From Natronolimnobius sp. AArcel1 (lineage in GTDB: Archaea; Halobacteriota; Halobacteria; Halobacteriales; Natrialbaceae): 64,000 nucleotides of DNA. A program made the position numbers and the translations under genes. A model generated the notes under the pieces. It saw only the letters and a program-made list of their open reading frames with translations, did no database searches and was not told the DNA's origin. The number at the start of each line of letters is the position of its first letter. The stretch's first letter is position 1. Positions 213-31,996 of this stretch are shown here, piece by piece. Location of the stretch: positions 1 through 64,000 of the forward strand of contig NZ_JAAKXY010000007.1 of NCBI RefSeq assembly GCF_011043775.1. The letters run 5' to 3'.

Positions 213-335
213 GGCCCTGTTGAAATGCTCAGTAAATGATGTTTTTGGCACTATTGGCGGTACGGGGAAAGTAGATACCGTATCCACAACAGAGACACCA
301 TTCAAGAGATTCCACGAATCTCGGCCTTGTTGAAC
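213..335. repeat. Solo IS-end remnants
   Basis: Two short stretches resemble the terminal repeat GGCTCTGTTGAAATCC seen at 29866-30656: GGCCCTGTTGAAATGCTCAG at 213 and GGCCTTGTTGAA at 323. The first also shares the next bases (AGTAA-TGAT) with the left end at 29866. No transposase lies between them. They are read as decayed ends of an IS5-type element. The rest of 128-449 holds no gene that I can see. Confidence 0.5.
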
Positions 336-449
336 CGCTATTACTTAGACGGGAATCTGTGTACACCAGCTGTTTAGTACGTTTGCGTAGCCAAAAGTGT
401 GACCGGGCGGTTCGACGAACACACGCATCCGGAGCGTTCCTTGTCGGTC

Positions 450-794
450 TTAAATCCAGTCGTCGGGGAGTTCGTCGGCGTGGTCGGCCATTAGTTTCAA
501 CAGCGGTCGAATTTCATCGAATCGCGGACCTTTTCGCAGCACATTGGCCTTGCGGTCCCACTCGACGAGTCCCGCATCCTCTAGTTTCGGGAGGTGGACG
601 TGCCTCATCTGTGTTCTCAGGGCCGCCAGGTCGTCGTCTGCGATGATGACGTCCGCTGGTAACTGGGCGTCGTCATCGTCCAGGGGATTGTGATTGCGCA
701 TCTCAACGAGCACCCGACGACGATAGACATCCGCCAGGATTTCCAAAACATCGTCGAGCACGAGTCGTTCGCTGGATTCGTTGGACCTGGTCAT
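450..794 (-). CDS. DUF7344-like winged-helix regulator
   Basis: A 114-aa acidic protein. It starts with a helix-rich stretch of the type LDDVLEILADVYRRRVLVEM (residues 12-31), has a middle region ending in the basic helix TQMRHVHLPKLEDAGLVEWD, and closes with a C-terminal helical tail. This is the size and pattern of the haloarchaeal DUF7344/ArsR-like winged-helix regulators, which bind DNA as small dimers. It is transcribed away from the HTH-10 gene at 1027, with 232 bp between them. No effector domain is visible, so the target is unknown. The family label rests on pattern recognition only. Confidence 0.7.
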   Translation of the reverse strand: MTRSNESSERLVLDDVLEILADVYRRRVLVEMRNHNPLDDDDAQLPADVIIADDDLAALRTQMRHVHLPKLEDAGLVEWDRKANVLRKGPRFDEIRPLLKLMADHADELPDDWI

Positions 795-1026
795 GCAGAT
801 GAGTTTGAGACCTGCAACGGGTTACGTCCGCGGTGGACTGTCGAACTGTTGACTCGCGTTTGAAGAATAATATTCGGAAAGGGTCGTGGCTGCGAGCTAC
901 TTCGATGCTACACCAGCACAGACAGATGTCGCAGATGGACGTGCACGTTCACACGCTGAGCGCGATTCGATGTCGAACCTCGGAAGCCAGCCGCAGGTGT
1001 AAGTCTCTCCATCTCCTATCCCGAAT

Positions 1027-1698
1027 ATGGCCACAGAAACGGACGAGCACTCAGTTATCGCGGAAATCAGCATCGAGGCCGATGACATCGAGTTCGGACG
1101 CGTGCTGTCGGGCGACTTCGAACTCGAACTCGAACGGATCATTCCGATGGGGTCGGGTGGAGTGATCCCGTTGATCTGGCTCAACGCGGGCGACCCTGAA
1201 GCGTTCGAGACCAAAGTGCGCGAGTACGAAGGTACCAAGAAGATTCGTCAGTTGGTCTCTGTTGATGACCAGTTTCTCTACCAGGTGGAGTGGACCCCTG
1301 ACATGAATGGCTTCCTCACCGCGCTCAAGGAGTGCAACGTCTACGTTCTGGAGGGGGAGTACGAGGACGACGTCTGGGAGTTCCGCCTGCGGTTCACGTC
1401 CCGGGACCAACTCGTCGAGTTCACCGAGCGCCTCACGGCGAACCTGATTCCAGTGCGGCTCGACCGAATCTACAACCCTGGCCCGCCTGTGGCATCACCC
1501 CCCATGTCAGAACAGCAGCGCGAAACAATTGAACGAGCGTACCGACGCGGGTACTTCGAGGTGCCGCGCAAGACCACGTTAGAAGAACTCGCTGAAGAGG
1601 AGGGAATTAGCGACTCGGCGTACTCCAAGCGTCTGCGTAACGGCCTCGCATCCGTCATCGAAGGAGGCCTGCTCTCAGAGTTCGATTCCCATCACTGA
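1027..1698 (+). CDS. HTH-10 (Bat-type) transcriptional regulator
   Basis: A 223-aa protein. Residues 1-150 resemble the bacterioopsin-activator-type sensory N-domain (alternating strands, rich in acidic residues). Residues about 158-215 form the HTH-10 domain: MSEQQRETIERAYRRGYFEV, then TLEELAEEEGISDSAYSKRL. HTH-10 proteins are haloarchaeal one-component regulators of membrane, redox and surface genes. The ATG follows an AT-rich promoter stretch. The flanking genes are an unrelated regulator and an IS, so the regulon cannot be inferred. The family call is firm, the function open. Confidence 0.88.
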   Translation: MATETDEHSVIAEISIEADDIEFGRVLSGDFELELERIIPMGSGGVIPLIWLNAGDPEAFETKVREYEGTKKIRQLVSVDDQFLYQVEWTPDMNGFLTALKECNVYVLEGEYEDDVWEFRLRFTSRDQLVEFTERLTANLIPVRLDRIYNPGPPVASPPMSEQQRETIERAYRRGYFEVPRKTTLEELAEEEGISDSAYSKRLRNGLASVIEGGLLSEFDSHH

Positions 1699-1750
1699 CA
1701 AATGAGTGCCTCTGTTAACATGTTCGTAGTCATCGATCCGAGAACCCAAA

Positions 1751-2696
1751 GCACTGTTTCACTGTAAGATCCCGTTCTGCGTCGCTGCTTCAGCCGATGA
1801 ATATCCGTTCTGTCTCTCCCGGTTAGAGCATCTTATCGAGGTTGTGGGTGAGGCATGCGATAGCGAGTTCGCGGAACTGCTTCCACCAGTGGCGAGAGCG
1901 AACGAACGCCCCGTATTTTCGTTTGAGTCGAGAGTTCACCGTTTCGCTCTGGTTCCGTTGGCCGTAGAGTTCGGCATCCAACCGAGCGTTCCACGCTTGC
2001 TGAAGTGAGGAGAACTCACGGTGTTTGATCAGCGGACGAATCCCGTTCTCTCGAGCCAGTGTTCTAATCTGCTGATCGTCGTAGCCCTTGTCACCAAGCA
2101 GAACTCCGACTTCAGCTGCATTACGGTTGATGAGCGATGGTGCGATCTGCGTATCGTGTTTTCGGGTCGTTGTGACGTGGAGATCGAGGATCGCATTCGC
2201 TCTCGTATCGACTAAGAGCGTGACTTTCAGCTGCTGAATCGTCAGCTTCGTCCTCTTCGTATAGTGCTTTGAGGCGTGACTGCGGTAGAAGCCCGAGGCG
2301 TCGATCCCCGCAACACCGTCAGTTGGGAGCAGTGAAACAGAGAGGTTGAGAAGCACTCGCCAGAGGGCCATATCAAGTCTGTTGAATACTTTACAGAGCG
2401 TTGACGGGGCAGGAAGTTCGGTGAGGTTGATTGCGTTCCGAATGCGGGGCATTTCGATGAGTTCGTCGAGGAGTGTTCGATAGGTTGTGTCCTTCCGAAC
2501 TTTGAGACATAGCAGAACGATGTGTTGATGAAGCGTGTAGCGTTGTTTCGAGTACTTCGATGAATATCGGGCCACAGCACGTTGCGCTAACTGAAATGCT
2601 TCCTCGACAAACCGGAGCAATCGTGACTTCGGGAGAGTCTGCATTCGGTTGCACTACTGCCCAAACGTGTAACTCTTCAAGGGTTTCAACAGAGCC
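1751..2696 (-). mobile_element. IS5-family insertion sequence
   Basis: The element carries one transposase gene (1823-2644, minus). Its right end, read inward, is GGCTCTGTTGAAACCC (2681-2696), a typical haloarchaeal IS5-type terminal repeat. The left end is a poorer match near 1751 (GCACTGTTTCAC), and the 8-bp flanks do not match, so the left boundary is approximate and the copy may be old or rearranged. Confidence 0.75.
1823..2644 (-). CDS. IS5-family transposase
   Basis: A 273-aa DDE transposase that catalyses cut-and-paste movement of its element. The catalytic triad is visible: D115 (GIDASGFYRSH), D185 (LLGDKGYDDQ) and E234 (NQSETVNSRLKRKYG). The N-terminal 90 residues are the helical DNA-binding part. 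The reading frame is intact and full length for this subgroup, so the protein may be active, although the left terminal repeat of the element looks degraded. Confidence 0.92.
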   Translation of the reverse strand: MQTLPKSRLLRFVEEAFQLAQRAVARYSSKYSKQRYTLHQHIVLLCLKVRKDTTYRTLLDELIEMPRIRNAINLTELPAPSTLCKVFNRLDMALWRVLLNLSVSLLPTDGVAGIDASGFYRSHASKHYTKRTKLTIQQLKVTLLVDTRANAILDLHVTTTRKHDTQIAPSLINRNAAEVGVLLGDKGYDDQQIRTLARENGIRPLIKHREFSSLQQAWNARLDAELYGQRNQSETVNSRLKRKYGAFVRSRHWWKQFRELAIACLTHNLDKML

Positions 2697-28466: not shown

Positions 28467-29153
28467 CGTGTTTAGTTAAGTGAATTTTACCAAGCGTCGA
28501 AGGTCTGCAGCCATGTTTCAGCAGTCGCTTGATCGTTGTTACTAATATTATTGTTAAATGAAAACCTCTTGTTTCATATTTAAATATATTTTTATCACGT
28601 TCCTATTTCCGTGATGTTCTAGTCGAAATTGAACCTCAACTCGTTGCAATGCAGCCGCTAGGTTGTCCACTTGATTAGTGAAAAATACAGCGTCATTGAC
28701 GTCGTGTTTCTCACGAAACTCTCGCGAAAGCCGCTTCGTCAATAACGTGATAGTCGGTGGAAAGAGGCGTAAATGCAAGGGTTAGTTCGCCTCGAGATCG
28801 ACAGCGTCGTATAGCCAGAACTGTAGGCCGTTGGTTTGGATCAACGTCTCGTCGAGCACGACGTGATCTGGGTTCACGTTGCTGGCGGGCTGTAGATCGG
28901 CCTTTTTGCACCCACTCGTGGACGGCTTTTCGAGATGGTTTGCCACCTAACATTTCTATTCCTAAGATAGTATTTGAAAGTGATGATTCTACGAGGTATA
29001 GACGGATACCGAACTTCATCAGCAGGAGCGGTGTCCGCTTTCGCTCCACAAAACGTAATTCAATCCAGTCGCAACAACCTCTGAGGGGAGTTATTTTCTA
29101 CATAGACCATTTGAAAACCATCTCGCCTCATGCTTCAGTCTTAACTAAACACG
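28467..29153 (-). mobile_element. Decayed IS6-like element with terminal repeats
   Basis: CGTGTTTAGTTAAG (28467-28480) and CTTAACTAAACACG (29140-29153) are perfect 14-bp terminal inverted repeats. Inside, broken minus-strand transposase pieces are readable: LMKFGIRLYLVESSLSNTIL and EWVQKG near the right end, VFFTNQVDNLAAALQRVEVQ and RLEHHGNRNV in the middle, and a C-terminal ATAETWLQTFDAW. Several frameshifts and stops make it non-functional. Confidence 0.8.
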
Positions 29154-29154
29154 A

Positions 29155-29218
29155 CCCAACCGCCGAAACGTGGTTACAAGCCTCCGCAGTCTGGTGGAAT
29201 TCGCGTGACTAAACACGA
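29155..29218 (+). pseudogene. 3' fragment of another copy of the same IS
   Basis: Next to the element's end the plus strand reads TAETWLQASAVWWNSRD-stop followed by GTGACTAAACACG, the transposase C-terminus and end repeat of the same family in the opposite orientation. Only about 60 bp remains, so this is a nested or head-to-head insertion scar. Confidence 0.65.
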
Positions 29219-29760
29219 TGCCGTCGACCTTCTCGAAGTACTTTGTCAACGCACCGGCGGCACTCTCTCGTTGCGGGACGAACGCAACCCAGTCGTAGTG
29301 GGCTTCGTGTTCAAGTCGAGTACCCACGGCTGTCGAGATCTTACTCGAGAGCGTCTCGAGATCGGTCCAATTGGCTTCATCAACGCTTGGGTCAGGAGTT
29401 ACCCAGATCGAGTCAACGATACCATGGACGACTCGCCACCCGCCAGCTTCCAACCGCTGCTTAGCCGTCAGCAGAATCTCTCGAGCGAATGCGTTGATTG
29501 CTTCGTGGCATTCAATCCGGCCGAATTTCGCGTTGCTGAATCCCTGGTACCCAAAGCAGGCAACGAGGATCCACTTTAGCGCCTCTGACCGACCCTCGAG
29601 TTCTCCAAGTCGATCTTCATTGGGATCCTTGCACTCCTGTTCGCGACGGATGGCGGCTTTAATCTCGTCACGAGCATTAATTATCGGCTCGAGGACGTCG
29701 ACGAGATAGCCACGCTCGTCACAAATCGAGTACCCAAGCCCGGGGGACGTCATCACAGAA
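29219..29760 (-). pseudogene. Internal fragment of a family-B DNA polymerase
   Basis: The minus frame reads SVMTSPGLGYSICDERGYLV, LGELEGRSEALKWILVACFG-YQGFSNAKFGRIECHEAINA, then WRVVHGIVDSIWVTPDPSVD. The order (motif A region, motif B KxxxN-x-YG-like, motif C DS core) fits the palm and fingers of a haloarchaeal PolB2-type polymerase. The exonuclease domain, the N-terminus and the thumb are missing; both ends coincide with mobile-element scars. The fragment is unlikely to be expressed as a functional polymerase. Confidence 0.75.
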
Positions 29761-29774
29761 ATGCAAGGAGGAAA

Positions 29775-29794
29775 CCCACGACTTCTGTCGTGGG
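29775..29794 (+). repeat. Solo IS1341-type end hairpin
   Basis: CCCACGACTTCTGTCGTGGG is nearly identical to the hairpin at the right end of the tnpB element (31970-31989). With no tnpB beside it, it looks like a right-end scar of an earlier insertion. Confidence 0.6.
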
Positions 29795-29865
29795 GAGAAT
29801 CCGACAAGGGTCGAATCAATCCACGAGCGATAGCAGTCGGACTCCCCGCCGCTAGTCGAGAATTT

Positions 29866-30656
29866 GGCTCTGTTGAAATCCTCAGTAAGTGATATATCTT
29901 GACCCGGTCGCGGTCAATACAGGTGAATAACGTATCAAAAGAATCTTTATGGTCGATTCAGAACCGTTGGATACCTTATGACTGACCCGTCAGAAGATAC
30001 GAGTCACGTGATAGAAGATGCCCAGTTCCGTTTACTCATTGATAAAGCGAACGACGGTCTGTTCCTCATCGATCCAGAAACGGGGCAAATCCAAGGTGCC
30101 AACCAGACAGTCTGTGACTGGCTAGGGTACACCAAAGATGAGGTTCTGGACATGACGATCTTCGACTGCCAGACGACTTTCTCTGAGCCTGAAGCATGGC
30201 AGACGTTCGTTCAGAGAGTGCGTGACGAAAACGGAGTACAAATAAAAAACAAAATTCAGACAGATACTGGCTCGATGATCTCTGTTGAGGGAAGCATCTC
30301 GGTCGTCTCGGTTGACGGCTCTGACTATGTCGTCGCTATTCCTCGGTTACTCTCCGATCAGGAGTAGCGAATTACCCCGCGAGAGAATCGTCTATCTCTA
30401 TTGAAATCTTGGTGATGAATGGGCGTAGGAGTTGATGCAGACGACGTTATGGGTGAGCGGTCGGGTGGATCGATGTATATGCCGCTCTCTTTCTGACAGA
30501 GTCAGTTCAGTCTCTTCGGAAGTTTCGCCGCACAAGTCGTTAGATGCAGCACGTAGGGTAACACTCCATCTTGTAATCACCGACTCAATAAGCACCTTTC
30601 AATGACCAGCTGTTTCAGACGGGAACATATCTGAAGAAGAGGATTTCAACAGAGCC
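29866..30656. mobile_element. PAS-gene element with IS-type TIRs and 8-bp TSD
   Basis: GGCTCTGTTGAAATCC (29866-29881) and GGATTTCAACAGAGCC (30641-30656) are perfect 16-bp terminal inverted repeats. They are flanked by an exact 8-bp direct repeat, GAGAATTT (29858-29865 and 30657-30664), the target duplication length of IS5-type haloarchaeal elements. The 791-bp unit has no transposase; it carries one intact PAS-domain gene (29978-30367). It is therefore a non-autonomous element presumably mobilised by a related IS5-type transposase such as the one at 1823-2644, whose right end shares the first 14 bases. Bases 30368-30640 show no further gene. Confidence 0.8.
29978..30367 (+). CDS. Stand-alone PAS domain protein
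   Basis: A 129-aa protein consisting of one PAS domain: FRLLIDKANDGLFLIDPETG (residues 17-36), IQGANQTVCDWLGYTKDEVL (38-57), and the beta-hairpin region ENGVQIKNKIQTDTGSMISV and VVSVDGSDYVVAIPR at the end. No kinase, HTH or transmembrane part is present, so it may act as a small sensor or interact with histidine kinases. It is the only gene inside the transposon-like unit 29866-30656. TTTAT lies about 28 nt before the ATG, consistent with its own promoter. Confidence 0.85.
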   Translation: MTDPSEDTSHVIEDAQFRLLIDKANDGLFLIDPETGQIQGANQTVCDWLGYTKDEVLDMTIFDCQTTFSEPEAWQTFVQRVRDENGVQIKNKIQTDTGSMISVEGSISVVSVDGSDYVVAIPRLLSDQE

Positions 30657-30695
30657 GAGAATTTATAAAGACATACACAGATATGTGAAACACGG

Positions 30696-31996
30696 ATGGA
30701 GGACGTGATTCGCACCGTCAAAGTCAAACTCGATGTCCCTACAGAGCGGTGCGATGACCTCCATCAGACCAAAGGCCAGTTCCTCCACTGTGCCAATACG
30801 ACGGCAGACTGGGCGTGGAAATACCCACACGACTATTGTATAACCTCGAAACAGAATGCTGAGAAAGCCCTCTACGACAGACTTCGTAGTGAGACGGAGT
30901 TGACAGCGAATCTCGTGCAGAAAGGGATTCGACGCGCTATAGAGGCCACAAAAAGCGGTGTCGCTCGCCTCAAGGACGGCGACACGACGAGTCAACCGCA
31001 CTTCGACACGTGGAGTGTTGTCTATGACAAACGAAGCGCGACGTTCCACCGCGATCACGTCTCTCTGTCCACAGTGAATGGCCGTGTCGAGTGCGACTAC
31101 GTGATTCCCACCGAACCAGAGGGAACACCAATTGGTGAGTATCTACTGAACGAGGACTACGAGTTCCGTATGTCCACATTGCAGTACGACCGTTCCACAG
31201 AGTCGTTCTATCTCCATGCACGGATGCGCCGACTCGAGCGTGACGAGCGAGAGCAGTCCACAGCTTCTTCTGATGCCAAGCACAGAACAGTCCTTGGCGT
31301 TGACCTAAACGTGGACGGTTCGCTCGCCGTGACTTCGACAGGCGTGTTCATCGGAAACGCTGACGAGATGAATCATCGGAGCCGAGCGTTCGAGAAGACT
31401 CGCGGGTCACTGCAACAGACTGGGACGCGGTCGGCACACCTGTCGATTCAATCGATGAAAGACCGCGAACACCGCTGGATGCAAGACGAACTCCATCGCG
31501 CTTCGAACCAGATTCTTGAAGAAGCCCGTGACCACGGTTGTACGCACATTGCGTTCGAGAACCTGACCGGGATTCGTGACCGGATGCCGGGTGCAAAACG
31601 CTTCCATGCATGGGCGTTCCGGCGCTTGTACCACTACGTCGAATACAAAGCCGAGATGTTCGGCATCGGGACCGAACAGGTGAGTCCGGCGTACACGAGT
31701 CAGCGGTGTTCGTCGTGCGGGTTTCCCACGAGTCTAATCGGCAGTCAAAACACCAGTTCGTGTGTCAGAAGTGCGAGTACGAACTGAACGCAGATTATAA
31801 TGCGAGCAAAAACATCGCTCGCAAACTTCTCAAAAAGTTCCACTCGAGGCAGAAGTCTTCGAGTGGAGGCGCACCCTGTCAGTGTGCGCTAACGTCAGGG
31901 ACGCTGAACCTGAACGGCGATTACACCGCCTCCGTCAATTCGACGGGAGAGGGGGAGTCCACTGACAAGCCCACGACTTCAGTCGTGGGTTACTGA
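30696..31996 (+). pseudogene. tnpB: Frameshifted TnpB RNA-guided nuclease
   Basis: The first frame (363 aa) has the RuvC-like Asp D203 (VLGVDLNVDGS), Glu E288 (HIAFENLTGIR) and the first zinc-ribbon pair C338/C341 (QRCSSCGF). Then the frame is lost near 31728; the second half (CQKCEYELNADYNASKNIAR, third RuvC Asp) and C-terminal tail continue in another frame to TAA/TGA at about 31996. One base missing in TTTCCC-ACGAG explains it. TnpB proteins use RNA from the element's right end to guide DNA cleavage; this copy should be inactive unless frameshifting restores it. A TATA-like TTTATAAA lies 30 nt before the ATG. Confidence 0.85.
31970..31989 (+). repeat. Right-end hairpin of the tnpB element
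   Basis: CCCACGACTTCAGTCGTGGG forms an eight-pair stem with a four-base loop at the element's right end; in this family the right end overlaps the 3' part of the guide RNA. Confidence 0.7.

Follow-up and report, generated by a model that had tools for sequence, protein, structure and literature searches.

A PAS-domain gene of a haloarchaeon as the probable cargo of a mobile insertion cassette with IS5-type ends

Does a lone PAS-domain gene that sits between inverted repeats, with no transposase beside it, belong to a mobile unit, and is it then the PAS gene that such units spread? The question is raised by a locus in a stretch of 64,000 nucleotides from Natronolimnobius sp. AArcel1 (contig NZ_JAAKXY010000007.1, positions 1 to 64,000), called the window below. 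Haloarchaea are believed to exchange genes horizontally on a large scale, and small vehicles that move single genes among them are, to our knowledge, poorly described. The original prediction for this locus, made from the letters alone, was a MITE-like element that would spread or shuffle PAS modules between haloarchaeal genomes.

The unit is 791 bp long (29866-30656 of the window), and its features are given in Table 1. Its terminal inverted repeat is perfect, as had been predicted, though it is 18 bp rather than 16 bp long (GGCTCTGTTGAAATCCTC, at 29866-29883 and 30639-30656). The exact 8-bp target duplication, GAGAATTT, was confirmed on both sides. So was the content of the unit: the only recognisable gene in the interior is intact and codes for a PAS protein of 129 aa, and no transposase is encoded there. 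The protein belongs to the PAS domain family by PF13426 (E=3.7e-10; 40.4 bits against a curated cutoff of 27) and is also matched by TIGR00229. When the terminal repeat was taken as a 16-mer with up to 3 mismatches, 5 matches were found in the window, against 0.58 expected from shuffled sequence. A DNA search of the host genome gave one full copy of the PAS cassette, which is thus single-copy.

Table 1. Features of the PAS cassette, its target and the IS5-type element in the window
Feature	Position	Strand	Evidence or remark
Target: IS200/605-type tnpB-only element	29753..31787	+	PF07282 and PF01385; uninterrupted homologues
Left copy of the target duplication, GAGAATTT	29858..29865	.	sequence and empty-site comparison
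Left end module (LE, about 57 bp), starting with GGCTCTGTTGAAATCCTC	29866..29922	+	conserved throughout the cassette family
TATA-like TTTAT, about 30 bp 5' of the PAS start codon	29946..29950	+	candidate carried promoter, leaderless type
Cargo gene, 129-aa single-domain PAS protein	29978..30367	+	ORF, profile matches, dN/dS
Right end module (RE, about 69 bp), ending with the 18-bp inverted repeat	30588..30656	-	conserved family-wide
Right copy of the target duplication, GAGAATTT	30657..30664	.	sequence
Complete IS5-type element, 2,484 bp, duplication ATTTATTC at 205-212 and 2697-2704	213..2696	-	matching terminal repeats
Intact IS5-type transposase, 273 aa	1823..2644	-	NF033579 transpos_IS5_2, 216.7 bits against cutoff 140
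IS passenger 1, DUF7344-type protein	450..794	-	PF24035, E=2.2e-7
IS passenger 2, BAT/HTH_10 regulator	1027..1698	+	PF04967, E=1.1e-15, and PF15915

Was the cassette inserted as a whole? To find empty sites, both flanks of the cassette were joined and used as a query in the genome family. Uninterrupted homologues of the target, 92% identical across the junction, were found on contig C2 of the host genome itself (G000), in G123, the other genome of this genus, and in G221, which belongs to another genus. The target AGAATTT is present in a single copy in each empty site and in two copies in the window. Since uninterrupted versions of the target exist both in the host itself and in its relatives, the insertion of the PAS cassette was precise, in agreement with what had been expected of an empty-site comparison. 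The leader of the target element starts at about 29753, its tnpB ORF occupies 30696-31787, and the cassette breaks the leader just 5' of tnpB. The tnpB gene is itself apparently split into ORFs 30696-31787 and 31610-31996 in different frames, which suggests a frameshift (window 30696-31996). On the left of the target element, ORF 29145-29819 shows a weak similarity to family B DNA polymerases (PF00136, E=8.6e-6) and is possibly a remnant.

Where does the PAS gene come from? Its relatives are rare: at E<=1e-22, only 4 of the 394 genomes have one. On a plasmid of Natrinema zhouii, a PAS gene of 78% identity lies behind a cassette left end of a diverged subtype, and the right cassette end was looked for at that locus and not found; this copy is the only other relative that keeps any cassette end. 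The two nearest other relatives (G209, 74%; G223, 64%) are chromosomal and have no cassette ends. Both have apparently a DMT/EamA-like permease gene beside them, as read from the ORF translations. Compared with the N. zhouii copy, the gene in the window has a dN/dS of 0.24 (NG86) or 0.38 (YN00), which indicates that the PAS protein is under constraint by purifying selection. The simplest history would be that a chromosomal PAS gene was captured into the cassette, and the PAS protein is probably expressed from the cassette and functional. Two RE patterns, one LE pattern and the PAS protein were searched in viral contigs and gave no related sequence, and phage records gave none either; thus viral carriage was not seen in those collections.

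The ends of the cassette tell more than its gene. With the whole element as a query, matches were found in 182 of 394 haloarchaeal genomes and in 61 of 95 genera, and these matches were nearly always restricted to one of the two ends, bases 1 to about 72 on the left or about 720-791 on the right. The RE alone matched 61 plasmid records, for which the organisms listed were all haloarchaea. Family members were assembled by pairing inward-facing ends in the stretches around the matches. This gave 40 transposase-less elements in which both ends are recognisable and recur together in the same arrangement, which excludes that the two ends of the PAS unit come from different elements. The duplication is 8/8 in 20 of them and 7/8 in 3 (23/40), while 120 offset controls reached at most 4/8. 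The remaining 17 of the 40 have matched ends without a good duplication, so that recombination has probably built or rearranged some of the elements. In the alignment, the LE is conserved at about 1.2-1.8 bits per base to about 57-60 bp and the RE to about 70 bp, after which both drop to background; the transposase-less elements range from 312 to 2456 bp. In this search for further copies the ends recurred with 8-bp duplications, but repeated movement of the PAS copy itself was not seen. One locus (L133) holds two different cassettes (1628-2104 and 2226-2598), about 120 bp apart, each with an exact duplication.

What do these constant ends carry? The interiors of 50 extracted transposase-less elements fell into 45 unrelated families in a translated comparison, where the cargo survey includes many short ORFs that are unproven genes. 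The cargo supported by Pfam comprises the PAS protein, a PIN toxin with an upstream small ORF, a HicA toxin with a DUF7387 partner, an HD hydrolase, RDD and DUF6653 membrane proteins, an HVO_A0114 wHTH protein, HalOD1, a PQQ-repeat protein, a PBP-like lipoprotein and a trypsin-like protease. Some cargoes recur at different sites, as the DUF6653 protein (L023, L056), a 114-aa protein (L029, L044) and a 57-aa glycine-rich protein (L046, L071 and a Halorubrum PV6 plasmid). This 300-kb PV6 plasmid has four cassettes with perfect duplications and four different cargoes. By the longest ORF, the cargo reads one way between the ends in 30 elements and the other way in 14. Strong TATA-like boxes are found about 26-32 bp 5' of the longest ATG-started ORF in 11 of 44 cases (two adjacent bins summed), against 0-2 per bin elsewhere; this enrichment is consistent with leaderless promoters being carried alongside the cargo gene.

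Two of the cassettes are toxin-antitoxin-like, one with the PIN toxin and its upstream small ORF (L024, 629-1571) and one with HicA and its DUF7387 partner (L066, 1986-2744). Such pairs, mobile on a single cassette, could help to retain the element. A 2,456-bp cassette with an exact duplication (L078, 5886-8341) carries the trypsin-like protein and a second, membrane-type ORF, and its trypsin-like protein matches the candidate defence family PDC-S45 (E=1.9e-18). Defence as a general theme of the cargo is not supported: when five cargo proteins were scanned with PADLOC, a match was obtained for the trypsin-like one alone (best PDC-S45).

There is a further question of concern, which transposase might serve such elements? 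An IS5-type element had been placed at 1823-2644 of the window. The transposase is there, and its NF033579 score assigns it to the IS5 family, but the complete element is larger, being bounded by ATTTATTC and including two passenger regulators. The proposed kinship of the repeats also stood, and it is closer than the two mismatches first counted: the IS end at 2681-2696 differs from the terminal repeat of the cassette in 1 of 16 bases. A second IS5-type element of the host lies on the window's contig (L009, 538-1973; C7:113237-114672) with the exact duplication TGTGGAGG, a frame-disrupted transposase and a 103-aa lipoprotein-like passenger. Across 22 elements with an IS5-type transposase, the gene is typically 52 bp from one end, and beyond it come a passenger region and, in many cases, the same RE. 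The repeat GGCTCTGTTGAAATCC is found 52 bp from the transposase in nearly every close relative examined, and most of them have a second repeat about 400-1270 bp past the transposase gene, usually with 8-bp duplications; as some of these elements were partly accepted by their duplication, their duplication rate is no independent statistic. The passenger regions vary, with a peroxiredoxin-like protein, a low-molecular-weight phosphatase-like protein and lipoproteins as examples. The RE module is conserved in the cassettes and often at the passenger-side end of the IS5-type elements, while the module at their transposase-side end shares with the cassette LE only about its first 22 bases. An RDD-protein cargo (82%) is shared by the transposase-less L040 and the transposase-carrying L140.

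We consider, with a probability of about 0.88, that the PAS unit is a mobile insertion cassette (MIC) with one of many alternative cargoes, and that it is most likely mobilised in trans by an IS5-type transposase. Two asymmetric end modules, which match the ends of haloarchaeal IS5-type elements, would enclose a foreign gene and its own promoter without a transposase. An IS5-type transposase from passenger-carrying relatives in the same genome, such as 213-2696, would recognise the shared repeats in trans, excise the cassette and insert it elsewhere, leaving 8-bp duplications. We infer the mobilisation in trans from sequence comparison, and likewise a route by which the cassettes capture cargo genes.

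Could the unit rather be a dedicated vehicle which spreads PAS sensor domains among haloarchaea, as originally proposed? It does hold an intact PAS gene, the 78%-identical gene of N. zhouii adjoins a cassette left end, and other signalling cargoes (HalOD1, BAT/HTH_10, DUF7344) occur in family members. However, the cargo of other members is unrelated, the same ends carrying at least 45 unrelated interiors, the PAS gene is found in few genomes, and its relatives of 74% and 64% identity have no cassette ends. The cargo survey largely refutes this proposal, and we leave it a very slight chance. A somewhat different explanation is that one passenger-carrying IS lost its transposase by internal deletion and kept the passenger, with no separate cassette lineage. 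The order of transposase, passenger and RE in the IS would fit, and so would the RDD cargo that occurs with and without a transposase. Against this, conservation in the cassette LE reaches to about 57 bp with a sequence of its own, which departs from the transposase-side end of the IS after about 22 bp, so that most cassettes look like a separate lineage; an IS-type end with no transposase match was seen in one element (L135). This derivation is improbable for the PAS unit. It is hardly credible that two unrelated solo ends flank a resident PAS gene by chance, as the N. zhouii gene with its one end might suggest, since the exact 8-bp duplication and the contiguous empty sites indicate that the ends and the PAS gene came in as one unit.

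The MIC reading of the PAS unit may be extended to the whole family, which we do only tentatively and with some doubt. The LE and RE modules might form a general haloarchaeal system of gene capture and exchange, taking up almost any small gene with its promoter and recombining ends and cargo freely, with IS5-type transposases and plasmids carrying the cassettes from species to species. This would be a functional likeness to integron cassettes, but working by transposition.

To which known class does the cassette belong? Its repeats match those of an IS5-type IS, it has a passenger and no transposase, and its duplication has the same 8-bp length as that of the IS at 213-2696, so it has the structural features that define a MIC. 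A transporter IS combines a transposase with passengers, as the element 213-2696 does and the unit 29866-30656 does not. MITEs are short, non-coding and present in many copies per genome. The PAS cassette is present once and has an intact gene for a conserved protein; what remains of the predicted MITE-like vehicle is a transposase-less mobile unit with intact PAS cargo. Gene cassettes of integrons are inserted by an integrase at attI/attC without target duplication, whereas here an 8-bp duplication is present and the cargo is found in both orientations relative to the ends.

MICs and transporter ISs are recognised classes in ISsaga, where passenger-carrying "transporter ISs" are treated in general terms (PMC3129680, 2011). 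A similar organisation is seen in IS231/MIC231, an IS4-family system of the Bacillus cereus group (Chen 1999 and De Palmenaer 2004, as cited in the review PMC2266710), with ISs that often have passengers beside the transposase and transposase-less cassettes that share their ends and hold a passenger gene. The differences are that the duplications of IS231 are 10-12 bp (PMC2266710) against 8 bp here, and that the present family has an IS5-type transposase (NF033579), haloarchaeal hosts and a very wide range of cargo. ISH2/HqIRS32 is also haloarchaeal and transposase-less, about 520 bp long, with inverted repeats and one ORF, and of the five MITE families of Haloquadratum it alone is described as having an ORF that probably codes for a protein (PMC3119063); judged by description, it is set apart by the many different genes between constant ends here. 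A haloarchaeal transposon of Halorubrum lacusprofundi likewise has a single passenger gene, Hlac_3088, but by its description this gene adjoins its transposase and is reported as one case (PMC10544981). The Hlac_3088 gene pair was not found in two inspected regions of an H. lacusprofundi plasmid. Searches of the open-access full-text literature brought up no haloarchaeal family in which constant ends are combined with many cargoes, although individual members may already be named in ISfinder.

What would such a family mean for haloarchaea? Constant ends that are found in almost half of the searched genomes and carry dozens of unrelated cargoes, toxin-antitoxin pairs and regulators among them, would be a concrete and testable gene vehicle. 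As the ends can be searched directly, the whole pool of cassettes can be listed and the functions of the cargo tested. The family also shows that a modular organisation of the IS231/MIC231 type extends to another transposase family and to Archaea.
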